Virus record (IMG/VR): IMGVR_UViG_3300047552_000486
Coordinates: 1 to 52,276 of that record
Reading direction: 5' to 3' (one strand)
Source: a virus
Length of the DNA: 52,276 bases
Position 1 is the first letter of the stretch. Every line of letters begins with the position of its first letter. Positions 3,064 through 49,900 of this stretch are shown one piece after another. A program made the position numbers and the translations under genes. The notes under the pieces are model-generated. The model saw only the letters and a program-made list of their open reading frames with translations. It made no database searches and was not told the DNA's origin.

Positions 3064-3597
3064 GTGGTCAAATCTAGATACAATAACTTCGCTGAATACG
3101 AACTCAAGGATGCTAACTTCCTAATCAAGGTACTCAAAGATGAGTTATACAAGACTCAGGCAAAGATTGAGTTCAAGGATGGCAGTACCTACCATGTAAC
3201 TAAATCAGGTAGTAGATATTGGGAGAAGAATAAACAGATGCATCGCGAGGATGGACCATCAAGCTCATATATGTGGAGCGGCGAGGTCCGCAATAGATAC
3301 TATTTGTTCTCAGTTCACTTTGAAGATGTCGAGGATCACACGAATGCTGTTGTTCGACTCAATGAACTTAGAACTCTGACTGATGGCAAGATTGAAGGCA
3401 TCGTGGAAGAGATTACTAAGAATATCAGTTACGACCAAAGAGGTGCCATTTGGCGCACTCTTCTCAGTGGCAAAAACGATGATCAGGTATTACTCGACAT
3501 CACTGCCCTGTCTCAGGAGTACGTCAGACTAACTAAGTTGTCCACTGATTTTGTGTCTAAGTACTCTACATTGCCCGAGTCTGTCGATCAGCCTTAA
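3064..3597 (+). CDS. Small early protein of unknown function
   Basis: A 177-residue protein with a GTG start behind AGGAAA at 3053 and 30 bp downstream of a consensus early promoter. The reading frame is clean, and the promoter makes it a likely early gene. The only recognisable piece is around residues 35-70 (FKDGSTYHVTKSGSRYWEKN followed by MHREDGPS). Such Trp/Tyr plus HREDGP segments recur in many phage proteins of unknown function. The rest is charged, probably helical, with no membrane segment or signal peptide. It stands alone between the divergent fibre gene and the homing endonuclease, which begins 13 bp after its stop. I do not recognise a function. Host-directed early roles are common for such genes, but nothing here shows one. 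Confidence 0.75.
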   Translation: MVKSRYNNFAEYELKDANFLIKVLKDELYKTQAKIEFKDGSTYHVTKSGSRYWEKNKQMHREDGPSSSYMWSGEVRNRYYLFSVHFEDVEDHTNAVVRLNELRTLTDGKIEGIVEEITKNISYDQRGAIWRTLLSGKNDDQVLLDITALSQEYVRLTKLSTDFVSKYSTLPESVDQP

Positions 3598-3610
3598 TAA
3601 ATATCCGACA

Positions 3611-5311
3611 ATGAAGCAAAAAATATTAGATATTATCTCCCAGAAGCCAAAGCGATTCACATTCATCATTGCGCGTGATGCGTCTCTACTAGACTGGGTA
3701 ATGAATAACTCAATCATTGACCCAGCGTCTCCGCTTGTGCAACACGTATACAGTGCTCTACATAACAGCACTAATGTATGTCCCCACGGCGGGGTCAAAG
3801 GACTACGTAATATTACTCTAGGATGGTCTACTGGTTGTGGTCCAGCTGGCAAATGCAAATGTACTCGTGCCGCGGTAAGTGCATCGGTAAGTGCCAATAA
3901 ACAGGCTAGGTCCAAAGAGGACATCAAAGCAGAGAACAAAAAACGTGAAGCTACTAATCTAAAGACGCATGGCGTCAAGAATACTGGACAAACTAAACAG
4001 GCCAAAGCTAATCACGCTGCGTTCTACGCTGATCCCACTAGTGCGGCAGCAGCTGTAGTAAAGCAGCAGGCAACAATGACTCTGTTATACGGACAAGATA
4101 ACCCAATGAAGGTTACTCAGTTTAAAGATGCCGCCATCGCGACAAGTATACAACGCTATGGCGTAGCTAACCCTATGCAGAATAGCACAATATCGGCGCT
4201 GTCTGCTACAAACCGTAGTATCAACTTTAATAGCAGCGAGTCGATCAAAAAGAACTTCCCCAGCTTCGTCGAGATGTTAAAGAGTTCGTATAACGTTGAG
4301 CCGCTGATGACCGCTGACGAATATATCGGTGTTGGCACCCGGCCGTTCATCAACTTCAAGTGTTGTGATTGTGGTCACACGTTCGTAAAGCGTATGGACT
4401 ATAACGAGACCACTGCACCTTATTGTAAAGTATGTAATCCCTCTGAGAAGTCTTTTTGCTCTAAAGAAGAACAATCTGTGGCAGAATTCATCAAAGAGCA
4501 CTACACTGGCAAGATGGTGATTGGTGACAGAAGTGTGATTAATCCGTTCCAGCTAGATATCTATTTACCAGATTTGAATCTAGCTATCGAATATTGTGGG
4601 TTGTACTGGCACAGTGAGAATGGCGGGGCATCAAAGAAGTTCAGCTATCATCGCATCAAGTACGAGTTAGCGGCCAGCAAAGGCATCCGTTTGATTACGC
4701 TATACAGTGATGAATGGTTACAAAAGCAGGACATTGTTAAAGATAAGCTACTGGCGATTATTGGTGTCACCAAATTAGCGAATATCGGTGCAAGACAGTG
4801 TACAGTCGCCAAAGTTGAACGTGGGGTCGCACGAGCCTTCTACGATGCGCATCACATTCAAGGGTCGTCGATGACAATTGGAGACACTTATGGGCTACAC
4901 CATAATGGTGAATTGGTCGCCGCCATGAGCTTTAAGCGCATTGATGTCGCGAACAATGTATACGAACTATCTAGATTTGCTACTAGATTAAATGTGCGAG
5001 GTGGTGCTAGTAAATTACTTAAACACTTTATCACGGTGTCTGATGCCAACAGTATCGTTAGTTTTGCTGACCTTCGTTGGAGCACGGGTGATATGTACTA
5101 TAAGTTAGGATTCACCAACGTCGGTGAAGTTCCACCAATGCAGTACTACGTTGAGAACTATACTACCAGATACCATAAGTTGAAGTTCAAAAACATCGTT
5201 AATGAGGGCGAAGATATCACCGAGTGGGGTAAGTTACAAAGTCTTGGTTATGACCGTATATGGGACTGCGGTAAGATCAAGTTTGCGTTAGATATCTCTC
5301 GTGATATTTAA
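3611..5311 (+). CDS. Composite homing endonuclease: NUMOD-like repeats, zinc finger, Vsr-like nuclease and GNAT-like C-terminus
   Basis: A 566-residue protein starting at ATG 3611. Order of parts: an N-terminal region with CPH and CGPAGKCKC clusters (residues 57-84); three short repeats of the 'YGxxNPM' type (about 116-195), as found in DNA-binding parts of free-standing homing endonucleases; a Cys4 zinc-finger-like element (C251, C254, C272, C275); and a Vsr/PD-(D/E)XK-like core with E287, D316 in LDIYLPD, E327 in IEYCG and H334 in WHSE. The C-terminal domain (about 395-560) contains GELVAAMSF, ELSRFATR, DLRWSTGDMYYKLGF and RIWDCGKIKF, resembling an acetyltransferase (GNAT) fold. Vsr-like homing endonucleases are an established family. 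The gene sits at a junction beside the capsid gene, as mobile endonucleases often do. Function of the C-terminal domain is unknown. Confidence 0.8.
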   Translation: MKQKILDIISQKPKRFTFIIARDASLLDWVMNNSIIDPASPLVQHVYSALHNSTNVCPHGGVKGLRNITLGWSTGCGPAGKCKCTRAAVSASVSANKQARSKEDIKAENKKREATNLKTHGVKNTGQTKQAKANHAAFYADPTSAAAAVVKQQATMTLLYGQDNPMKVTQFKDAAIATSIQRYGVANPMQNSTISALSATNRSINFNSSESIKKNFPSFVEMLKSSYNVEPLMTADEYIGVGTRPFINFKCCDCGHTFVKRMDYNETTAPYCKVCNPSEKSFCSKEEQSVAEFIKEHYTGKMVIGDRSVINPFQLDIYLPDLNLAIEYCGLYWHSENGGASKKFSYHRIKYELAASKGIRLITLYSDEWLQKQDIVKDKLLAIIGVTKLANIGARQCTVAKVERGVARAFYDAHHIQGSSMTIGDTYGLHHNGELVAAMSFKRIDVANNVYELSRFATRLNVRGGASKLLKHFITVSDANSIVSFADLRWSTGDMYYKLGFTNVGEVPPMQYYVENYTTRYHKLKFKNIVNEGEDITEWGKLQSLGYDRIWDCGKIKFALDISRDI

Positions 5312-15711: not shown

Positions 15712-15727
15712 TTTAACTCAGAACTAC

Positions 15728-15750
15728 AAGAGCACCTTCGGGTGCTTTTT
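15728..15750 (+). terminator. Rho-independent terminator after the hub genes
   Basis: AGCACC, a TTCG loop, GGTGCT and a run of T (15746-15750), extended by A-T pairs at the base of the stem. It separates the hub pair from the non-coding region. Confidence 0.9.
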
Positions 15751-15772
15751 GTTGGTCTATACATGGAGTACA

Positions 15773-15835
15773 TGGTGCTACGCACGTGTGTATTTTATAG
15801 ATTCTTCATCCGCTCTTGGTGCTACGCACGTGTGT
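15773..15835. repeat. Two 19-bp direct repeats
   Basis: TGGTGCTACGCACGTGTGT is found identically at 15773-15791 and 15817-15835, 44 bp apart start to start (about four helical turns). Each contains the near-palindrome ACGCACGTGTGT. Confidence 0.85.
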
Positions 15836-15852
15836 CATTCAGTGTCCATTAC

Positions 15853-15929
15853 GTGTGGTACCCGTCTTCGACGAGTACACACAATTTACTTCGTTTGCTC
15901 CGGCTATCGCCTACGCATACTCGTAAATT
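15853..15929. other. Two adjacent hairpins
   Basis: Hairpin 1 (15853-15882): GTGTGgTACcCGTC, loop TTC, GACGaGTACACAC. Hairpin 2 (15883-15929): AATTTAC pairs with GTAAATT, inner short stems GT-TGC/GCA-AC and GGC/GCC, loop TATC. They abut exactly, suggesting a folded RNA or a recognition structure in DNA. Confidence 0.55.
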
Positions 15930-16007
15930 ACTTCTTTTTCAGTTCCATAGCAGTCAATTTATCCATTTTATAACTAGTAAATCAGCAAGATATATGAGTT
16001 CACCTTA

Positions 16008-16029
16008 ATACACACCATATACACACCAT
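16008..16029. repeat. Tandem 11-bp repeat (ATACACACCAT x2)
   Basis: Perfect head-to-tail copies at 16008-16018 and 16019-16029, running directly into the first 18-bp repeat. Confidence 0.8.
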
Positions 16030-16132
16030 AGTGCTATACTTCCGAGAATGATTTCGCAATATAGTAGATTACTTTACGCAAAAATGTGAATAATTCGTCA
16101 AAAACCGTGTACTTATAGTGCGATACTTCCGA
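16028..16132. repeat. Two 18-bp iteron-like repeats
   Basis: ATAGTGCTATACTTCCGA (16028-16045) and ATAGTGCGATACTTCCGA (16115-16132) differ at one base and are 87 bp apart. Both are followed within a few bases by GATTTC, with a 3-base length difference. They could be protein-binding iterons or operators; TATACT inside the first also resembles a -10 box without a -35. Confidence 0.7.
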
Positions 16133-16178
16133 CGATTTCTGTGTATAACTTTGTGACTTTTCGGTTGATCCAAAATGC

Positions 16179-16208
16179 TTGATTTTTTTGATATTTTTAG
16201 TTTAAAAT
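16179..16208 (+). promoter_or_regulatory. Weak candidate promoter for the polymerase-like gene
   Basis: TTGATT (16179-16184), an 18-bp spacer and TAAAAT (16203-16208). It overlaps AATGCTTGA (16174-16182), which resembles a T4 middle-promoter MotA box. The region is so A/T-rich that chance matches are likely. Confidence 0.3.
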
Positions 16209-16240
16209 AGCGAGACTATAACTCCGATTTAACAATTTAA

Positions 16241-17371
16241 ATGACAAAAAAACAATATATTCCAAATTTCAAAGACAAACGAGTAGTTGCCAGAATCCGC
16301 CGCGCTCATGGTTTCGCCAAAGCCATGCTGCGTGAAGCAAAGTGGGTACCATGTAGCCGAACTATGTTAGACAAGCACCTTGGGTTACACAATAGTGACT
16401 TGGGTCGCTATCTTCGTTGGTTACTGTTGATTGGATCGGCTGAACCATATTCAATGCACGATGGTGTTGTAAAGCGATACAAACTAAACAAACCTGGTTT
16501 AGACTTCCTCCGTTATCAGATCAATACACCGAACAACGACTATACATACCACGACCATCTTGAAGGTAAAGTATGGATCGATACTACTTCTGAACAGGCG
16601 CTCGAATATGAACATAAACTATCGCATGAGACTGTCTCAGAAGCCTACCACGCGACACACGGTGAAGAACTCACGTCATTGAACTTTATCTACAATGACA
16701 AGTCCAGCCGTCTCTGGCACCCTATCCAGAACATCAAGCGCGAGTACAAGACTAAACTACTCGAAGATGCTGGTTTGAAGTACCACTATGACATTGTTTG
16801 CTGTGCACCGACATTGATTGCAGGTCACGCTAAGAATTTAGGAATGGAAACGTATCCCGAGTACATCTATGGTTATATCGAGTGTCGTGACGCGGTGCGT
16901 GAATCAATGGCTATTGATTTGGGAGTTGATGAAGAGTCAGTCAAACGAGCAATCTTGGCTCTCTTTTGTGGCGCACGGTGTGGTACTAATGAGCGATTTG
17001 CTATCTTCAATCTACTGGGAAGTGTCAAAGCGGTCACTGAGTTCAGAGAGCACTTCTTTGTCAAAGGTGTGCGCGAAGAGATTAAAGACTGTTGGGAAGC
17101 AATCAGACCGACTATTGGTAAACGCACTATTGAAGATAAGAATGGTATTGAGCGGGTATTACCAATCAGTAGCAGACAGAAGTGGGGCGTTTACTTTGAT
17201 ATCGAGCGCACGGTGCTGAACGCGGTCTCTGATTACTTGGACAGCTACGATAATGGTCACTTCTTAGAGCATGACGGTTGGTCATGTGAAGATGTGGTTG
17301 ATACTGTAGCAGCAAGCGCGTATATCAAAGCTGCTACTGGATTCGAGATTGAGATTGTTGAATCTGATTAA
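16241..17371 (+). CDS. Putative small polymerase-like replication protein
   Basis: A 376-residue protein; ATG at 16241 without a clear Shine-Dalgarno site. Residues about 38-92 look like a winged helix (CSRTMLDKHLGLHNSDLGRY, then YKLNKPGLDFLRY). After SRLWHPIQNIKREYKTKLL (156-174) comes YHYDIVCCAPTLI (181-193), comparable to polymerase motif A with D184. VKRAILALFCGARCG (234-248) is comparable to motif B (Lys/Arg helix ending in a Gly loop). FLEHDGW (341-347) is comparable to motif C (HDE/HDS in family A DNA polymerases and T7-type RNA polymerases), with D345. The order and spacing fit a minimal palm domain. I infer a DNA or RNA polymerase or primase-like enzyme, perhaps for origin-linked initiation. 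It shares a TTAA stop overlap with the convergent nuclease gene. No enzyme name is certain. Confidence 0.6.
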   Translation: MTKKQYIPNFKDKRVVARIRRAHGFAKAMLREAKWVPCSRTMLDKHLGLHNSDLGRYLRWLLLIGSAEPYSMHDGVVKRYKLNKPGLDFLRYQINTPNNDYTYHDHLEGKVWIDTTSEQALEYEHKLSHETVSEAYHATHGEELTSLNFIYNDKSSRLWHPIQNIKREYKTKLLEDAGLKYHYDIVCCAPTLIAGHAKNLGMETYPEYIYGYIECRDAVRESMAIDLGVDEESVKRAILALFCGARCGTNERFAIFNLLGSVKAVTEFREHFFVKGVREEIKDCWEAIRPTIGKRTIEDKNGIERVLPISSRQKWGVYFDIERTVLNAVSDYLDSYDNGHFLEHDGWSCEDVVDTVAASAYIKAATGFEIEIVESD

Positions 17372-34942: not shown

Positions 34943-37900
34943 ATGGCACAAGTCCGAACCCTACAATTTCTACCAGAAGTCTTCCAAACGGAGACCAATG
35001 AACAATTCTTAGCGGCTACGCTAGATGTTCTAACAAGTCAACCCGACATGCTTAAAGTGCAGGGTTTAATTGGTTCGAAATATGGTTATGGAGTTACTCA
35101 GAATGACAAATACGTTGTGGAGTCCACAGACGTCCGCAATAACTACCAGCTAGATCCAGCGGTCACCTTCTTAAAGACCGACACACAGGAAGCGGTTGAC
35201 TTTATTGACTATCCTGGCATCATCGACGCTATCGCCCGTGAAGGCGGCATCAATAAGAACCACAATAAACTATTCTCTAGTGAATTCTACAGCTGGGACA
35301 GCTTTATCGACTTAGATAAGATTGTAAACTACGCACAATATCACTGGTTGCCACTTGGCCCTGATGCTATCTTAATCGACAGTGATACAGACTTCTCAGC
35401 AATCATTGGTGCTAAGACATACCCTAGTGCTGCTGCCATCACAGCGGGCGCAGCTACATTCGTAAACGGCCTAAAGGTAATGTTTACTGGTAACGTAACC
35501 GCTACGGCAGATGGATTCGGTGCTAAATTCGTTGAATACTACGTTGAAGGTGTTGGTACAAGTATTGAATTGATTCCAGTTGACGACTTGCTATGCGTTG
35601 AGACATGCGCTGGCGGTATCTACAACCCTTGGGACATTGGCCGTTGGGACAGTGGTTCATGGTCTATTCGCTTGAATGTTCCAGTTAACCCAGACTATAT
35701 TGTGTCTAATCGCCGCAGTCGCGAACGCAATGCGTGGGCTCGTGGTAATCGCTGGTTCCATCAATCAGTAATCGACACCGTAATCAAGTACAATGGCGTT
35801 GCGACTACTAACGATTATAACACACAAACTCGTGCGCAACGACCAATCATTGAATTCGAACGCGACTTAGCACTGTTTGACAGTGGTACTAAATTCGGCA
35901 CTATCGTTGACTTCGTAAACGATACGGAAACTAATGCGATGTCTAACGTTGTTGGTAGCGATGCTTGTACATTTACTACTACAATTAAAACAGCTGGTAG
36001 TACACTTGGTCAGACCGTTACAACTACTGTACTAGACGGCGGCACTATCATGTTCCCCCATGATAGTAACTCAACAGTTAAAAAGACTGTGTACACAGTG
36101 CGTATGATACCAGCAGGCCCAAATGGCGCAAAAATTGTATCATTGGTGCCAAAAGTCGGTGTCACTATTGAAACAGGCAGTGCCGTATATGTTGCTAAAG
36201 GACCAAGCGTTGACTATTTGGGCAAAGCTCTACAGTGGACGGGTAGTTCATGGGATGAGTCTCAAACGAAAGTCTCTATCAATCAACCACCTATGTTTGA
36301 TGTGTTTGATAGCAGTGAGTATAAATTAAGCAACGACACCAAGTACATCGCCTCTACGTTCAAAGGCACAAAACTATTTGGCTACACTGTTGGTACTGGT
36401 GACAATGACGCTGTTCTTGGCTTCCCAGTTAAGTACAGTTCTGGCGCCTCTACTGGTGACTTTGTGTTCACTGTTTACTTAAACGAAGACACGTTCACTT
36501 ACAAAACAACTAGCGCTGCTACTACGGCTACTATCGCACGAGTTAACTCAGGATTCATTCACACTAACTACGCTGATGGTACATTCAAGGCGCGTAATGG
36601 CTGGGTCAAAGCTGCGTCTGATAGTAAACAGTATCAAGTATTCGTCTTTGATATCACTGCTACTAATCAATATCTACTTGAGTGTGATGTTGTTGCTGGT
36701 GAAGAAGCGGTTACTCTTTGGAATCCTGTTCAAATTTATTTAAACGGTGACTATGTTGACAGCAGTAAGTACAGGGTAATTCGTGACACGGTTGCAAACA
36801 AGACTACTATCATCTTTAAAACGAATCCACCAAGTATCGGTGATCAAGTATCGGTGTCTCTGCTAAGTGATAGTGTTAGCTCAAAGGCATTCTATGCGAT
36901 TCCTACTAACTTGCAGAACAATCCATTCAATACAGAAATTAAGTCCGTATCTGCTGGTGATATCAAGCACTTCTATACAAGTATCTATAGCAATGCACCA
37001 GGCGCTTCTGGTAATATCTATGGTAGTAACAACTTAAACACACTTGGTGAAATCTCCAAGTACGGTACCACAATCATTCAGAACAGTGCTAGCTTGGTAC
37101 TACCTGGTGTATTCTTGCGCAAGACTAAAGCTAATTTAGGCAGTGCTCTTCAATATGCGTCCGATGAGTACATGGATTACAAAAACAGCATCATTGAATT
37201 AGCACAAAAAGGTGACTACTCAGTGTACCAAACACCAGCTCAGATTCTGGATGACATCATCTATCAAATCAGTTCTACTAAAAACGAAGCTGATTCATTC
37301 TTCTGGAGCGATATGCTTCCAAGTGGCAGTCCTTATAAGACTTCTACCTACACATTTAATGCAACTGTGTCTAACACCGTGTTCCCGTTATCAGAAATCT
37401 ACTTTTTTGACCGAGCAAACTACAAAGGCATTGCTGTATATCACAAGAAGATTGTGGACGGTAATGCTGTAACAAAACAATTGATTCGTGGTGTTGACTA
37501 CACCGTTAGTACCACTGAAAAAAGTTTGATGGTAAGTGCTACACTAACAAAGACTGATACCATCATCGTTAATGAATATCAACAAACATATGGTAGTTAT
37601 GTACCAGCTACACCAACAAGCATGGGTCTATTCCCAGCTTCTAAACCAGGTGTAGTCTTAGATGAAACTGCGCAAAGCCCAGTTTATATGTTGGTCGGTC
37701 ACGATGGTAGCTACACTCGTTTATATGGTGAGTATGATGCTACTAATGACACATTGGTAGACTTCCGCGATATCGCCCTACTTGAGTACGAGACACGTGT
37801 GTTCAACAACATCAAAGGTACCAAGAAGCCACCGATGACACGTGCTAGTTTGTTCCCTGGACAATGGCGCACTACCGACTATACTTTTGAAGAGATTCTA

Positions 37901-40900
37901 CCAGCTTATACAACGTCATTTATGCGTTGGGTTGGTAAAAACAGAATCAACTATCGTGAGCAATTCTACGCTGTTGGTAATCCATTCTCTTATAACTACA
38001 ATCGAGTATTCAATAAATTTGACAAGTCACAATTGAAGAGTGGTGGCTGGCGCGGTGTATACTTATGGTTGTACGACACAGTTAATCCAGCTGGTGCGCC
38101 ATGGGAGATGTTAGGACTAACGGTTAAACCAGAATGGTGGGACAAACGTTACGGAGTCGCTCCATATACAAGTGGTAATCTTCGCATGTGGGAAGATATC
38201 GCTGCTGGTTATATCTGGAATGACGCTGATGCTGATTCCTATGTTGACTCTACACGAGTGCGCCCTGGTCTATTGAACGCCTTACCAGTTGACGAAGCTG
38301 GCCGTTTAATGGATCCACTTAAATCAATCGTCGGTAACTATGATTCTAACACGTTTAAGCGTGAATGGGTAGCTGGTGACGTGGGCCCAGCAGAAGCATC
38401 GTACTTGCGCAGTTCATCATGGCCATTTGACCTAATGCGCCTATTAAGCATCTTTGAACCAGCGCAGTTCTATAACTACTGCGTTGATACTGATGATTAC
38501 AAATACGACAGCATCACTGGACAATACTTGTTCAACGAGCGCTATCACTTGGACCCAGCCTCTGTTGTTCTCTACGGTGCTGGCACATCAAAAAACAGTT
38601 ATGTAAACTGGATCATTGACTACATCAATCAAACAGGCGAAGACGGTCACAGCTATGTATCGGATCTATTAAAGAACTTAGATGTTCGCTTAACTTATAA
38701 AGTTGCTGGCTTCTCTGATAAAGATTACCTACGCTTCTTAACTGAAAACAGTTCACCAAACAGTACAGCTGCGTCTCTGTTAATTCCAGATGACAACTTC
38801 GCAGTGCTCTTATACGACAACGTGGCATCTGATAAGATTACCTACAGTAGTGTAGTGATTCAAAAGACAGAACGTGGATATACCGTATGGGGTAATTCAA
38901 TTACTAACCCGTACTTTACTGTGGTGACACCATCTTCTGGTCCGCTAGAGACAATTAAAATCGGTACAGTGTCAGTTCAATTAAGCACCGTATACGACTC
39001 ACTTAACACAGTTACTATCGCTTATGGCACTGAGTTCTATTCACTACAAGGTGTCGCTGAATTCTTACGTAACTACGGCCGTTACTTAGGTGATCGCGGT
39101 GTACAATTCGTAAACACACGCAACGGCGTTACCATGGACTGGACAGCAATGATTGCTGAGTACTTGAACTGGGCACAACAAAGTTGGAGTGTTGGTAGTA
39201 CCATTAGCTTGAACCCAAATGCTACAGAATTTGTAGCTGGTAAAGCTGGTCTAATTGTTCAACCATTGACAATTCGTGAACGCAACTTTGTCTTGAATCA
39301 AAACTTAGTTCCGTTACAACCAGAAGACATCGCAGTACTGCGTAAAAACGAACAGTTTACAATCAGAGTAATGAACGAAGGTGATACTGTTGCTTATGCT
39401 AACATGGATCTCAGTTGCGTTGAACATGCAGTTGTGTTTGACAATCAAACAATCTTTGGCGATACTCTGTACGACAAGACTACTGGCTTGCGTCAAGGCC
39501 GATTGATTCTACAAGGCAAAAAGTCGGCAAGTTGGACTGGCTCAGTTGATGCTAGTGGCTTTATCTTGAATCAAGGTGATATCGCTGAATGGTCAAGCAA
39601 CGGCAAGTATGCCAAGGGTACTATTGTCACTTATAAGAATTTATACTGGTCTGCTAAAACAGGTATTCAACCATCAGTGGACTTTGACTACACCCTATGG
39701 AATCAAAGTAGCTATGACAACATCAAGCGCGGCTTGTTGCCAAACCCATCAACTATGGCGTATGAAATCTCTCAGCTATATGACATCAACACTGCTAACT
39801 TAGAGCAAGATCAAGACTTGCTGGCATTTGGTTTGATTGGCTTTAGACCACGTGATTACATGGTAAATGCTGCTCTTACTGACACTACACAAATTAACGT
39901 GTATCAAACTCTTATTAAAAATAAGGGTACTAATCAAGCAAGTGGCATCTTTAAAAATGCTACACCGCTCCAAGGCGCGCTTGAGTATGACGTATTCGAA
40001 AACTGGGCAATTAAGAATGGTGAATTCGGCAGTGTCTTAAACAGTAACTTCGTTGAGATTCAATTACGTCAAGACCTGTTAACTGGTAATCCTAGTTTGA
40101 TTGGTATTGGCACCGATACTGGTACTGTTGATCAAACTGTTACTCGTGCCGAGTTAATTAACTATGGTGTTAAGCCATCGACTGATGCGTTCCTACCAGC
40201 TTATACTAGCTCGTATATCGAACAACGTGGTTTACCAACTGCAGGTTATGTCAACATTGACGACACTAAGTTCAGTGTGTTTAACTTGATGGACTTAAAC
40301 TACTCTGCTGAGAGTTTGTCTAGCTTATATCGTGGTGACATCATTTGGGTGGCAAGTCACGCTGGTAGCTGGGATATCTTTACACCAGTAAGTGTTGGCA
40401 CTGTTGCTACTACTGTAAAGAACAACCTGAATGGTACGATCACACTAACATTTGATTCTGCTCACGGATTAGTGGCGGATGATTACTTCTACATGACTGG
40501 CTTTGGAACGCTGGTAGATGGCTATTACAAGGTAAAGACGGTAGGAAGCGCTACCACCCTAACTGTAGCAAGTGCATTGACCAAGAGTAAACAAACGCTG
40601 GTGGGTACTGGTATCGTGTTTAAACTGGTGTCTAGACGCCATTCTTCACCTTCTGATATCACCAATGACACTTATAGTGCTTTTGTTAAGCGTCTACACT
40701 GGGTAGATTCTGATTATGGTGATAACTGGAAGGTCATGGCCGGACAGGTGGCATTCACTGCTAGTTCTGACTTACAACAAAGTAGTGGATACGGTTGCGC
40801 GATAGCGCATAGTGCCGTTCTTGGTACTGTTGTGGCTGATGATACTGCTGTCCATATTAGTGGATACACTGTACCGTTAACAGGTGTGCACTCACTCTCC

Positions 40901-43900
40901 GTCGTTAATGATAGCGCTGTTGTGTTTGCTGGTACGAGCACTGGTGTGTATAAGATTGTGAAGACTGTTGTTGATGGGTCAGTCACTTGGTCAACGACAC
41001 AGACACCAACAGTGCCAGTAGCTGGAACTTCACACTTCGCAGTTAGTGACAACGGCCTATGGTTGTATGTTGCTGCTGGTACTGTCGTTAAGACTTACAT
41101 GTGGAACGAAACTGGGTATGCGAATACAAATGAGACTATCATTGGTCACGAAATCACAAGTCTAGCTACCACACGTGATGGTTCTAAATTGGTTGTTGGT
41201 TCTGCTTATGAAGATGCGGACAGTATCACTAACGACAGTGGCGCTGCGTACATCTACGCACGTGCAAGTCAGACATTCATTCAAAACATTGGCGCATCTG
41301 TTCCTAATGAGTACAACAATGCGTTCCCGTTGTATGATTGGAATGCTACTACGACGAACGTTAGAGTAACAGTTAATAGCCGCGCAGTCACTACTGGGTT
41401 CTCAATTTCAATTACCAATAACACATTGTCATTCACTACCGCACCAGATGACGGCGCCACCATTATTGTTGACTCCGGTACTCTCACGTTCAAGCAACGT
41501 GTAGTTAGTGCTAAGCCACATATCGGCGGCAACTTCGGCATCTCTGTAGATACTAACAGATATGGTGATGAAGTAGTAATTGGTGCACCATACGAATTGG
41601 GTGAAGTTGATGGAGTACGCAACGTTGAAGGCGCTGCTCACCGTTTTGTAAACGCTGGTCAACGCTATGGTATCGTCTCTGCGAAAGTAACAACTCTCAC
41701 TTCTGATGTGAGTATCTTTATTGATGGGTACTTAATCGCTCTGACTACTGGTATGACCGCGCAAGATGTTGTTGATACTATCAACGCACAAGAACCAACA
41801 AACGTAAATGCATCAACACCAAGTTCATCTGGTGCGTTTACCATAAGTTTAACAGACAGAACAATTCTAACAGTACATGACAAATTAGACATTACTGGTA
41901 GTGACACCGACCTAGCTCAATTAGGAATCACTACTTATACTCACGTGCAAAGTATCACTAATCCGGACTACGGTTCAAATACAGGCTTCGGCGCTGTGGT
42001 ATCACTTGGTAAAAGTGAAAAGTGGTGCAGTACGTTGGCAATCAGTGCGCCAACCGGCTTTGCTCTAAGTGAAGCGTCATTTGACGCACCTACTTACGAC
42101 AACGTAGATAACGATACCATCTTTGACAATGGCGCAACTACGTTCGTAGACAAGATCGCTGATTGTGGCGCTGTATATGTTTACACGCTGTTGGATTCTG
42201 AATCAGAATCATTGGACAATCCTGACAAATATGTATTCGGTCAATACTGTAGTATCACTGACAGCGCTGGTATGAAGGCGCGACCACACTACGGTAGCAC
42301 TCTAGTAGTTGGCGACGGTGCTATCATTGCTGGTACACGTGAGTGGAGTAACTCTGGTGACGGCCGTGTTGTAACATTCACATCTACTGTTGGTAGTACA
42401 TGGAGTGTTGATAAGAGTGCTAGTGCGCGGGTGGACGTAGCCAAACTCCGTGGCGCCACCATCTACAATACTAGTACAAACACTACTATTGAAACACTTG
42501 ACTATATCGACCCATCACAAGGCAAATTATTGAGTGCAGTTGAAACTAACATCGACTTTATCAGTCACGTTGACCCAGCTGTATATGGTGCAGGTCAGCG
42601 CTGGGGCCAAAATAAAATTGGTACTACCTGGCTAGACATTAGTAATCTACGCATGATGAATACAGCGCAACCAAGTGCTGTGTACAACGCAAAACACTGG
42701 GGCGAGGCGTTCCCTGGCAGTACTGCTGATATCTATACTTGGATCGAAAGTTTTGTAGCACCGATTGATTACGCAGGTTCTGGATTCCCAACCTCTTATG
42801 ATTCGTACACTACATCTGTTGTTATCGACAGGGCTTCTAACTCACTGGTAACAAAGTATTACTACTGGGTAAAGAATTACGACTTGGTACCAGTTGGCAA
42901 ACAACTGTCACCAGTGACTCTATCACAGTACATCTTAGACCCAGTTGGAAGTGGAATTCCGTTCATGGGCGCAATTGCACCAAGTGTCATTGCACTGTTC
43001 AATACTGGTGATGCGATTCATGGAAGTGACAGCGCCATTAACATTGGCTATGCTACAACTAGCAGCGATGACGGTGCACACTCTGACTGGACACTCATTA
43101 AAGACGGCGAAGAGACCGACTTCTTAGCTGGTGTTCCTGGCAGCATCTCTGAGCTGCCAACTGATATGTACATGAAGTACATCAACAGCTACATGGGCTA
43201 TGACATGGTGAGTAATACAGTGCCGGACACTGGGCTACCATCATTAAAGCAAACTGGTACAGCATTCCGTCCACGTCAGACTATGTTTACTGACAGATTC
43301 GTGGCGCTAAAGAACTTCATTCAATACGCAAACAGAATCATGGCAGAAAATACCATCTCTGAAACACGTAGCACATTCTTGTTGAATAAAAAGTTTGAGA
43401 GTGGTGACCTAGTCGCTAATGATATCTTAAAGAAGGAATACTTCAACACAACAGATTACTGGAGCACGGTTGATTGGTGGGCTACTGGCTTTACTGCCAA
43501 CACCAAGATTACAATTGAAGTACCAACTAAGTCGGATCTACTCCGCATTGGTACTACCAGTACTCTGAACATCGGCAGCGAAGGTATCATCTTAGGATTA
43601 AGCGAAGGCTTGGTAGCACGTGTTACCAAGAATGGTCAGGGAGTTAACGAAACTTACTGCTGGACATCAGCCGCTGGTTGGACTCGCATTGGTCTCCAAG
43701 GCGGCACAATTCAATTCTCGGCTAACGTTTATGATTCAGTGACACCGGCTAAATCAGCGGCAATCTACTGGATCATTCGCTGGATTACTGAGCAATTGTT
43801 TGTTGATGAACTCTTATCACACAATAACTCATCACTAATGATGATGTTTGCTCTGATTCAAAGTACAGCTCCACAACATCAAAACTATTTACCATGGTTG

Positions 43901-46900
43901 AATAAGACCAGTTTAGTAGACGTTAAGAACACTATTCGTAAATTGGTTCAGTACAAGAAATATCAGCGCGATAGTATCGACTTGGTAGCTGGTTACTTGA
44001 ACGAAATTAAACCATATCACGTTTACATTAAAGACTTCTCATTCCTGTATAAGGGAACTGACACGTATGAAGGTGCATTCACTGACTTTGACATCTCATC
44101 TCAGTACAACGCAACTTCTGGTAAATTCGAGAGCCCGCAGCTGGTTTATAGTAACCCTGGTGATGGTCAGTATTTACCAACAGATAGTATTTGGTCTAGC
44201 TCTGCTTATAGTGATTGGTTCAGTCACAATGGCTTGACATTCAACAACAGTCAGGTAGACATCGTTGAAATCAGTAAATTGGCAGCTCCAATCTCAACTA
44301 GTTCTGCGTCGATTGTACTAACAGAATCTGGTAATTTACCAGACACCGGCACCCTTCAAATTGGCGATGAGCAAATTGGCTACAAGCAAATTGACCGTTA
44401 CACAAATACTGTAACTGCGCTAGTACGTAACACAAATGGCACTGGTGCATCTAACTATGATGCAAATGAAATCGTATACTTAGTACCAGAAGCGGTTATG
44501 GTAATGAACAGTGCGCGTGGTTACACCAGTGCACCAACAATCACTGCTTATTATGACACGGTTGAGTATCCATATCCACCACGTTCAGTAGCATCATTCA
44601 TCCCAACAATCACTGATGGTAAGTTGACTTCAATTTACACAGTGACTCCTGGTGATGGTTACCCAACTAACGTATCATTACGTGTATCACCATCATCTAT
44701 TACCACTAAGTTTGTAACTGACCAAGTTGACTCTGAAATCAATCAGATTCAAATCAATAGTCACGAGTTCATCTCTGGTGATTCAGTTGTATTAACTGAC
44801 TTGTCTAATGATGGCACGGCCGATACGAATACCAACTTGAAGGAATATCAATATTACTACGTTGGTGTGGTAGACGCTAACAACATTGCTCTATACACAC
44901 ATTACCGTGATAGTATCGATACATTCACAACATCGATGACTAAGTACACATTCTTGGTTGCTGGAACACCGTATGTCAATTGTATCAAACTCGATCAACC
45001 AGTATCAATTGGTAACCAACCATTTAACACTGGTGCACGTGTTCGTATTGTACTAGATCAAAGTGCTGGTAAGTTTGCTTATTACTATATCAGCCGTGTT
45101 GGTATGGAATACTCTAATGACACTAGTGTAAACGGATTCGCAGTAGTTGCTCTACATGAGACACACGCTGAAGCGGTTGCTGGTCTAGAATCAACACGTG
45201 TGTTGGTATCTGGTAGTGGTAAGATATCACTAGTGGCTCGTACTGACAGTAAGCGAATTGTATTTAAGAATGGTACTGACGGCACTATCTCTGTGTCAGC
45301 ACAGGTGCGCGGATTCATGAACTTGGGCGCAATTCGCCAAATGAAGATTGGTCTGCGCTTTGACAGAACCGGTTACTTACCAAGTATCACGACTTATGCT
45401 AAAGACACCGTGTATGAAGCTGGTGACTTAGTTAAGTATACCAACACTGATATCAACGCTAGTTTTGTTTATGTCTGTGATGTGGAACACATCAGTGTGG
45501 CTGATGCGCCAGACTTGGCTAAATTCGTTGAAATCAACAGTAGTGGCATTCGCATGACTGGTGACAAGATGGGCAAGTCGGTCGACTTAAACGGTCTTGA
45601 TCGTATTGCTGGATGGTATGAGCCAAAAGCTACAATGCCTGGCTACACTCTTGGCACTAAAACAACTCGTAAGCAGACTTCAGACCTGTCACAAATTGTA
45701 GATGGTACTAAGTACCCACATGCAACGGTGATGGACATGCCGTTTGCTGGTCCTAATACCTATGTGTTTACCTCTAAAGACGTGAACACGTCAAACAATA
45801 CCATTAAGTTGAATTCTACAAAGTCATTGAGTACAACTTACAGTGAAGTGATATATGGTAGTTCAAATAACGGTTTGTATGTGACTACTACACCGATTGC
45901 TGTCAAGTCTACGGCTGGAAGTAATGTCATTACAATGACTTCTACTACTGGCATCTATCAGAATAGCGAGATTCGTTTTGTAGGATTGCCACTAAACGAG
46001 AGTATTAATACACTATCTAGCACTACATACTTTGTAACTTCAGTAACTGGTAACAATATCACAATTGCTAACACAGTTGGTGGTAGTAACATCGAAATGG
46101 GCAATGTAGTTTATGCTAATGGCACAAGCGCTAACGTATCAGAAGGTTATTCACCAGTTATCCTAAACGTTGCTACTACTATGCCTACTGCTAAAGTATT
46201 CGCCGCGTTTACATCTGTTACTAAGATTAATGGTGAGGCTAATGCTAACTCAACACTAGGCGGCCATCGTATTGAGTTAATCAGCGATGCTAACATCAAA
46301 CAGTTTGACAAGATTGCTAACGGTACTGTTGTAAAGTTCAACAACAGCGTCGGTAGTATTGTTGCTGGTCAACACTACTTCGTTGGTGACAAAGCCGACA
46401 GTATTGTAGTTACCACGCAAACTGACCCTGCGAATAATTCTCCAATCATTAATACAACTATAACTAATTCGATCCGTTTATACACTGCTGCTAACCTCGT
46501 ATCGACAAGTTTAGTTACATTTGCTAATGCGACACCGTTCTCAACTACTGCGGTATTTAACGAAGCATTTGCTAATATCTCAATTGTTGATAATACCATC
46601 ACCCTCAGCAACTCTACAGCAACTATCGCTCGTGCTAATGCTGCCAATATATACTCTAACGTTACTATACCAGCTGCCAATATCGCTAATAACGCACCAG
46701 TTACCATCAATGGCAATCACTACTATGTTGCTAACAAAAATGATTCTAATAACAGCTTCAAACTGGTAACAACTCCAGGCAATGCCACCACCGTGTCCAT
46801 TGCTGATACTACTGGTACTACATACGCAGTCTTCTCCGGTTACACACAACCACTAGCCACAGACTTTGTTACTGGTGATCGTGTATCTGCGGAATTCACT

Positions 46901-49900
46901 GAGCCAACAAATTCAACTTCTGGTTACATGTTTGCCAACGTTACTAATGGCATCGTCACACTACACACTGATTTAGCAGGCGCTAAAGCTGGTACTAATC
47001 CGTACACCGAAATCGGCACTGTTGGTCAAATTATCAGACCAAAAACATTATTGACATTGGTTGGTGCCAACACTGGTAACGCAACGTCATATACTGCCAC
47101 GTTCGACCACTCTACGGATTCCACATCATTTGGTCTTGTCAATGATAAGCAATACACACTGAAGATTATCTCTACTACTGGCGACATTGCTGTTTATAAC
47201 AACGTGGATGATGCTGATGCAGATAGAAATCGCGTGCCATTAATTACAGCAGCAGGTGGTCAGTTCACTATTACCGAACTCGATTCAATCATTCGCCCGC
47301 CAGCATTCTTTGACACTGTTGACAATTACAGATTGAATGGTTCTTCATTCATTGAAGGTTATGGTCCAGAAGAATTGGTAGCTGGTGTTCTAACAGACGG
47401 TCTCAACTTCACAGTCACAACTCGTCCTGGCGCCACTTGGGACCCGTTGATGAGTGTTGAAGGTGCAGTTGAAGATGTTGCGTTTGGTAATACTGCGTTC
47501 AATAAGGTTCGTATTACTAATGCACTAACACCAACAAATAAAGTAGTCAGCTTCAAAGACGTGGTAGCTAATCCTGTTACTGTGATGGTATATACTAACA
47601 CGACAACTGGCTCAGTTCGTCTAACATTAGATACCGATTATACCATTAACTGGGTGGATCAAACTATTACATTGACACCTGGTTCAACCATATTCCCGAC
47701 TCTAGTGCCAGTCGCCCTAGACATCTATGAGTTCGGTAACGGTAGTCAAATTGTTCGCTCAAATTCTAACCGTATACCATTCCGTAGCGTTCAAACACCA
47801 GGTTCTTCCACTAATCACTCTGAAATCTTGTTGAACGTCCCGTTCAGTGAACTAGAGTTGCCAAGTGCTTCTAACTCTTATTTGAGTGCGCTGGTGTTTG
47901 TTGGTACTAATAATACCGATACTACACGCCTAACTTATATCGACGACAAATTTAGTCCAGTGTATGGCACAACTGAACACTTCAGTATTGAGCCACAACG
48001 AAGCTATGACCCAGTGAATGACCCGTATAACCCAGCTAAGATTGTGTTCTCTAAAGAGTACACTGCTACTGATTATGTGGTGTTCGCCCTAAGTACCAAC
48101 GTAATTGGCTTCTACACTGCTAATTCTGATGATATGAATACCATCACTCTGGTAGAGGGTGACAATGTTAAAAAGGTATACCTGGCACACATTGTGGACT
48201 TGAGTACCACAGTCAACTTCAAAGATTCAATCTCACTATACTTCTATCTACAGGATCGAGTTAGAGTGTACGTTAATGACATGTGGATGAGTACGGACGA
48301 TTACGCATTTGATATGGTCGACCACGATCAACCAATCTATGATTCGGTTACTGGTAAAGTTGTTGGATACGAGGTAGTCAACGGCACTTCACTACGTGAT
48401 GTATTAACTCGCGGTCAAGCATTTGCTCAAATCACATTCTACGATGGTATTTTGGCAACTGGTGACACTGTAAAGATTACATATGGTAGCTCTGGTATTG
48501 GCGTACCAGAGACACAGTGGTTCGGTGCTCCTACAGCTACTGATGTCGCATCTAACAAGAAAATCTTCCCACTAGAAAACTACATCAAAGACGGTAACTA
48601 CACTGCTATCAGTGAAGTTGAAATTTTGGATAACAACGGCAAGTTCAAGTGTAACTCAACAATCTTGATGAAGGCTGGCGACAGAATCACCATCAGTGGT
48701 AAGTTGATATCACCGACAACATCTGGTAAAATCGTCGGGTACACAGATTCACCCACAACAAATGTCTGGGATAGTAAAACATATTACATCTCGGAGACTA
48801 ACGGCTTTACAGGCTTCACACTGACATCATACTATGGTGGTAATCCAGATATCGTTACTGAGATGGGCACAGTTGAAGGTCTAACATTCAGTATTGAAAA
48901 CAACATTGTTGTTGAGATCAACGGCGTCCGTCAAGACGGCCCAGCGCCAAAAGAAATCTTCTATAAGATTGTGTCTGTTGTTGGTGAAAAGATGCACTTG
49001 AGTTACCCTGCGCCTGTGTACGGCTTGACTGAATTCAACGTCAAGTATTTGACAGTACAAGTCAACGGTAAGACTATTCCGCAGATGAACACAGATGGCA
49101 TCAATGCTAACTGGAACGTCAACTTTGACCCACTAGCAAACGAGTTCTATCACTATGCTGCTGACTTTGTGAACGAGCGTATGCCTTCGCCTTGGATCGC
49201 AGCTGACACTTATGTTCTCGGTGAACGTGTGATATACAACAATGCTTATTATGTATGTACTACAGCTATTATTACAGCTACCAGTACGACACCAGCACTA
49301 GACACTGATCACTGGGCTACATTAGCATCATACCCGCTCGACCCAGAAAACCATCATTACGGCTTCTTCGATGACGGCACACCGTTCGACAACCAGTTCT
49401 CGTTCAACGTGGTGTTCAATGATACTATTGCGTCAACAGACTTCACTGGTTCATTAGCACAAAACGACATCGTATCAATCACATACGATGTGCCACCAGC
49501 TACCGGCATTAAACAACCAGACGTGTATGTAATCACTGAGCGCGTAGAGAATGGCGCACTAACTGGTAAGTACGATATGTATGTGACTTATCCGTTCGGC
49601 ACTGAAGATAAAATCTCAATCACCACGTTTAACAGAACTAATCAGTCTAATCTAAAGACTCAGCGTATCACCGATGCGTTTGTGAACGAGGTATCAACTG
49701 TTGACATAGTAGCAGGTGTAGCTCCTCTAGTAACCACAAATCAAAGTCACAACTTTGTCACTGGCTATAAAGTAATGTTGAGCGGTGGTGCATTAGGCGA
49801 ACTAGCGGACAGATCATACTGGGTGGAGCGCGTGACTGCCACTGCCTTCAGAATCTATAACGACAGCGGGCTATCAACATTTGATACTGACGCAACTATT

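Follow-up and report, generated by a model that had tools for sequence, protein, structure and literature searches.

Comparable systems

A 2008 study predicted that TV-Pols combine primase and polymerase functions, and the polymerase of cyanophage Ma-LMM01 is a founding member of this family (Iyer, Abhiman and Aravind, 2008; PMC2579912). The demonstrated case, CcPol, requires a partner protein: this small A-family polymerase, encoded by the mobile element SCCmec, was shown to act as a primase when paired with MP (PMC10061031, PMC7581432). A further family-A enzyme, divPolA2, is known from barbaviruses and ICP1 (PMC11348598). Here, we describe a 376-aa protein encoded in a T4-like phage sequence of 52,276 nt (the window, meaning the whole stretch of DNA analysed), together with its relatives and the DNA in and around their genes. 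Like the TV-Pols (Ma-LMM01 protein, Sputnik/Zamilon polymerase-helicase), it has a minimal superfamily-A core with the Arg, the two palm Asp residues, the fingers Lys and the HDG motif; unlike them, the window family carries a winged helix of its own at the N-terminus and does not conserve the R of the RxxxK motif, and a D5 helicase was not found. CcPol, by its description, is likewise small, of the A family and carried by a mobile element, but it needs an SSB-like partner protein and belongs to Bacillota. The resemblance to divPolA2 lies in a phage family-A enzyme with an unrelated N-terminal domain and variable neighbourhoods; membership of divPolA2 itself was rejected by profile comparison (hhalign probability 0.2).

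Lambda O is a replication protein with recognition sites inside its own gene, between the DNA-binding and C-terminal parts. The layout of O and ori lambda resembles that of the relatives' gene with its internal element, described below, rather than that of the window. It differs from it in that O is not a polymerase, and in that lambda has tandem iterons whereas the relatives have single copies about 800 bp apart.

A minimal superfamily-A polymerase with a winged helix

The gene lies at 16241–17371 on the plus strand, and its product was assigned from the ORF, an AlphaFold2 model, Foldseek searches and hhalign comparisons. The initial annotation had recognized a winged-helix-like N-terminus and palm-type motifs in the right order, and both hold. 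The model (pLDDT 92.5, pTM 0.86, from an alignment of 34 sequences), together with the fold search, describes an N-terminal winged helix followed by a minimal superfamily-A palm/fingers domain. The winged helix occupies approximately residues 13–95 (16277–16525, plus strand), with helices at 13–29, 40–47 and 53–62 and strands at 63–65 and 79–82 according to DSSP. One long helix (118–146) precedes a hairpin, a two-helix antiparallel thumb being the TV-Pol trait. The palm-order motifs are YDIVCCAPTL with D184, KRAILALFCGA with K235, and HDG with D345; in the model, D184 sits on strand 181–185 and D345 in the turn between strands 340–342 and 346–349, which are the palm positions.

Conservation across 60 family members follows the same residues. 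The template-contacting Arg, R157 (16703–16717), stands where TV-Pols have a beta-hairpin. Motif A (Y183-D184-I-V-C-C-A189, 16787–16819) carries the metal ligand D184 and an Ala at the steric-gate position (D+5), motif B of the fingers spans K235 to G244 (16931–16978), and motif C is H344-D345-G346 (17270–17278), all on the plus strand. R157, D184, A189, R220, K235 and H344-D345-G346 are invariant in 60/60 members, and G244 is present in 59/60. The steric gate is thus Ala throughout, and Tyr is never seen at K+8; with both residues that usually select between dNTPs and NTPs replaced, the enzyme might make DNA, RNA or a mixture of the two.

Foldseek against the PDB returned family-A polymerases and mitochondrial RNA polymerases, T7 DNA polymerase among them with a probability of 1.00, none of them at E ≤ 0.001. 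Against BFVD, the 376-aa protein matched Zamilon and Qinghai Lake virophage proteins, which are virophage polymerase-helicases or replication proteins. Neither Pfam (E ≤ 1) nor PHROGs nor 50,697 phage records gave a match to the protein, and the whole family matched PHROGs, Pfam and NCBIfam at chance level only.

Relatives and their affiliation with TV-Pols

Scans of IMG/VR and of genomes yielded approximately 70 relatives, which reside on uncultured phage contigs save for two bacterial contigs (a Legionella MAG contig and Caballeronia udeis). A remote relative (E 3e-8) is located on a Polaromonas plasmid. Compared with an alignment of the Polaromonas protein, Ma-LMM01 gp030 and the Vibrio GR11A protein, the family gave an hhalign probability of 99.1 (E 1.9e-18), and R157, D184, K235 and HDG line up in the comparison. 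We take gp030 to be the founding Ma-LMM01 TV-Pol because of its place beside transposase genes. The annotated palm polymerase or primase therefore finds its counterparts in superfamily-A polymerases by fold and in TV-Pol-containing proteins by profile.

The invariant Arg that TV-Pols carry on a beta-hairpin ahead of the palm corresponds to R157, which is flanked by short strands in the model, and their two metal-binding palm Asp residues correspond to D184 and D345. The fingers motif RxxxK is incomplete: the position four residues before the invariant K235 holds E, V, P or L in the 60 members, and the invariant R220 lies further upstream. Since only the K of RxxxK is retained, we use the name TV-Pol-like. 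D5_N, the D5 helicase domain, was found neither in the window nor on nine related contigs; the link of TV-Pols to D5 or a recombinase is frequent, not obligatory. Nothing in the literature and databases searched appears to describe the family, the fold assigned to it or the conserved element discussed below; the kind of enzyme (TV-Pol-like) is already known.

Phage setting

The gene was initially attributed to a T4-like phage, and the window does encode a gp23-type major head protein, gp46, a gp55-type late sigma factor, a RusA-type nuclease and a T4 baseplate protein. By head protein, the nearest phages are the jumbo phages Phosso, 2.275.O and PA5oct. The gene order gp47, gp46, RusA-type gene or small ORF, a variable slot and then the baseplate hub is common to PA5oct and 2.275.O and similar in Phosso. 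In these jumbo T4-like phages, the slot between the RusA-type resolvase and the baseplate hub (L077 5667–7857, L078 5759–8169, L079 7905–9936) contains small ORFs (PA5oct), RNase HI and small ORFs (Phosso) or a helicase-like protein (2.275.O), and in the window it contains the polymerase. Because other genes fill the slot in the nearest T4-like relatives, the polymerase gene is variable-slot cargo.

T4-like phages normally encode their own PolB and primase. No PolB was found in the window, which is a genome fragment. On nine phage contigs of approximately 28–40 kb that carry this gene and may be incomplete, PolA, PolB and DnaB had no match, which fits a replication role of the enzyme in those phages. 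In Vibrio phage GR11A (L015 3951–6720), a 617-aa remote TV-Pol relative is directly followed by RNase HI, a kind of gene that also occupies the Phosso slot.

Repeats and DnaA-type boxes upstream of the gene

The gene is preceded by a 529-nt intergenic stretch (15712–16240) with a G+C content of 37%, compared with 44% for the window, in agreement with the annotated A/T-rich stretch. The annotated direct repeats are likewise present. The 19-nt repeat TGGTGCTACGCACGTGTGT occurs in two exact copies (15773–15791 and 15817–15835), the 11-nt repeat ATACACACCAT occurs twice in tandem (16008–16029), and the 18-nt repeat ATAGTGC[T/G]ATACTTCCGA occurs at 16028–16045 and, with 17/18 identity, at 16115–16132, all on the plus strand. 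They exceed chance, as the longest exact direct repeat in the stretch is 19 nt versus at most 13 nt in 2000 dinucleotide shuffles. With up to 3 mismatches allowed, the 18-nt and 19-nt repeats have no further copies in the window. Of the two hairpins annotated, one (AAGAGCACCTTCGGGTGCTTTTT, 15728–15749, plus strand) is of the terminator type and lies behind the upstream gene, and the stretch 15755–15960 (plus strand) has more RNA structure than its shuffles (fold z −2.8).

Two DnaA-box-like sequences on the minus strand, TTATTCACA (16085–16093) and TTATACACA (16140–16148), bracket the second 18-nt repeat. They are two of the three TTATNCACA sites in the 52-kb window and fall within 64 nt, a post hoc observation. 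We call the layout origin-like because of these boxes, the paired repeats and the A+T-rich stretch. The relatives show no enrichment of DnaA boxes in front of the gene, nor are such boxes a family feature, and the cumulative GC skew of the window has its minimum at 20.8 kb, with none at 16 kb.

The winged-helix gene, repeats, DnaA boxes and A+T-rich stretch are also what the window has in common with the rep/ori regions of iteron plasmids. Unlike those, it has two copies of each repeat rather than an array of at least three iterons next to rep, and no plasmid Rep domain was matched in Pfam at E ≤ 1; the Polaromonas plasmid that carries the distant relative encodes a separate RepA. The description of the locus as a plasmid-like replicon therefore goes too far.

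A conserved element in the genes of relatives

In most close relatives, a repeat of about 40 nt with the core TACCCTAKTGT occurs twice per locus. Near-identical pairs (14–45 nt matched) were found in 21 loci, with one copy at about codons 90–127 (in L036, upstream of the gene instead) and the other at the stop codon, and the gene-internal copy falls between the DNA-binding and catalytic parts of the protein. The consensus is TACCCTA[G/T]TGT-NNNNN-[A/T][A/T][G/C]T[C/T], and the flank to its left is poor in G. The K and N5 positions match at 95–100% within a locus versus 29–56% between loci, the excess of within-locus over between-locus match extends through the left flank to approximately −31, and to the right of position +10 the match between copies falls to near background. 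Different loci have their copies in different reading frames, so the element belongs to the DNA or RNA level, and a protein-level repeat was rejected.

Within IMG/VR, the motif was confined to the polymerase gene. A pattern scan across IMG/VR retrieved 20 of 2.9 million contigs, each with the polymerase gene or cut at its edge, the contigs that lack the full gene being those that end at the repeat with the gene edge present. A matrix trained on the pattern loci showed that other members have drifted sites in the corresponding positions, some of them inverted (L038, L042), and in held-out loci all sites above 10 bits lay within the gene or at most 150 nt from its stop, except in L087, where the ORF call is truncated. 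In L127, the two usual places are occupied by an exact 40-nt pair whose core is changed. Alternative layouts include inverted copies (L038, at the stop; L042), upstream copies (L036, L042) and tandem copies after the stop (L086, L104, L122). Nothing comparable to the repeat pair was found near the Ma-LMM01, Polaromonas and GR11A genes, members lacking the motif show no significant excess of repeats near the gene over the rest of the contig, and a literature search for the core sequence returned unrelated papers only, among the matches listed.

Several individual loci deserve mention. On the contig shared with L016, a 75-nt tandem duplication (L007 1028–1183) includes the repeat and the gene end and results in three element copies. 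Long direct repeats of their own around or after the stop occur in L050 (3831–3950), L132 (stop +36/+124), L046 (stop −21/+70) and L104 (stop −12/+49), and some members of this type have a drifted core motif or none. Two contigs end at a repeat copy or within about 55 nt of one (L067 1–42, L063 12975–13028), which could represent alternative junctions or assembly breaks. A T7-like promoter reading of the reverse complement (...ACAMTA-GGG) was dropped, as the variable 5 nt had no link to protein similarity in a weak test. Co-variation of winged helix and site beyond overall divergence gave partial correlations of 0.35 and 0.33, with no discrimination.

In the tree, the window protein has a long branch and is nested in the clade that bears the element. 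Scored with the strict matrix, the top site around the window gene reaches −0.2, versus 12–35 in members carrying the element. With the refined matrix, which includes drifted sites, the first 18-nt copy (as the 21-mer from 16024) scores 5.7 bits, rank 30 of 104,512 positions and in the tail of the background, and the second copy ranks 517; both score well below real element sites. By eye, the 21-mer is identical to the L040 site at 15/21 positions. The resemblance of the 18-nt repeat to the family element is thus not significant, and no more than suggestive of a drifted form of it.

A proposed start site for the polymerase

We favour, with a probability of about 0.5, a TV-Pol-like primase-polymerase whose upstream repeats and DnaA-type boxes are its cognate start site, the two forming one travelling cassette. 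The N-terminal winged helix would bind DNA at the nearby repeats, the minimal superfamily-A palm/fingers domain would start and extend strands, the upstream repeats and DnaA-type boxes would serve as an origin or priming site, and enzyme and start site would move together as a cassette in the variable slot of a T4-like phage. We infer the enzymatic activity and priming ability of the protein, its binding to the repeats and their use as an origin. That most close relatives keep the element in or around the same gene suggests that enzyme and start site travel together. The proposal in the initial annotation that the enzyme is tied to its own origin is accordingly plausible though unproven: the DnaA-type boxes among the repeats and the gene-linked repeat of the relatives speak for it, whereas that repeat lies elsewhere (in the gene and at the stop), is mostly of other sequence and is matched weakly in the window. 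In this diverse phage clade, a very small TV-Pol-like core comes with a DNA-binding domain of its own and with a candidate target that can be seen in the sequence, which makes start-site choice by a minimal family-A enzyme testable in a simple assay.

It is unlikely, though worth weighing, that the polymerase is real but accessory, with a role in repair, RNA synthesis or defence/counter-defence, and that the repeats in front of it serve ordinary gene regulation. The slot that elsewhere holds RNase HI, a helicase-like protein or small ORFs would suit such a role, as would divPolA2, another odd phage family-A group, which is thought to serve in repair or transcription. The 18-nt repeats contain a TGnTATACT-like sequence, and their TGC[T/G]ATACT would then represent two extended −10-like promoters driving the gene. 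However, a promoter scan yielded sites no commoner than in shuffles, and promoters would leave the 19-nt repeats, the DnaA boxes and the conserved element of the relatives unexplained.

Returning to the polymerase with a cognate start, we consider it improbable that the element is a site-specific start from which the enzyme copies leftward for about 20–40 nt from a fixed right edge, giving a product usable at the other copy. Such copying would explain why the element has a sharp right and a graded left boundary and why copies are identical within a phage and change between phages; if true, it would amount to a polymerase with self-matched priming sites inside its own gene. The identity of the two copies may stem from excision or strand transfer, from gene conversion or from a binding specificity that both share.

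Excision or recombination at the relatives' paired repeats, which would render the catalytic segment removable or exchangeable, appears decidedly improbable. In about 20 loci the catalytic part has a direct copy on either side, copies are identical within a locus even in the variable 5-nt stretch, and the ends of L063 and L067 at or near a copy would fit. Against this, the inverted, upstream and post-stop tandem layouts listed above depart from a direct flanking pair, N- and C-terminal distances correlate (r 0.63) without clear swaps, and neither a recombinase nor an empty site was identified. Action on RNA, in which either the protein or a small RNA would bind the mRNA at two sites to control expression, is very improbable: copies within the coding sequence and immediately ahead of the next gene's ribosome site, agreeing with each other and varying between phages, would suit it, but the inverted stop copy in L038 would give a different RNA, the upstream copies in L036 and L042 lie outside the coding region, and Rfam has no family matching the window.

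Other features of the window

Beside the major head protein gene, on the opposite strand to it, lies a homing-endonuclease-like gene (3551–5311, plus strand; phrog_3339, E 1e-95), and in PA5oct the equivalent position is taken by a Hef-like homing endonuclease. After the baseplate genes, a single ORF of 5568 aa (34943–51649, plus strand) takes up about a third of the contig.
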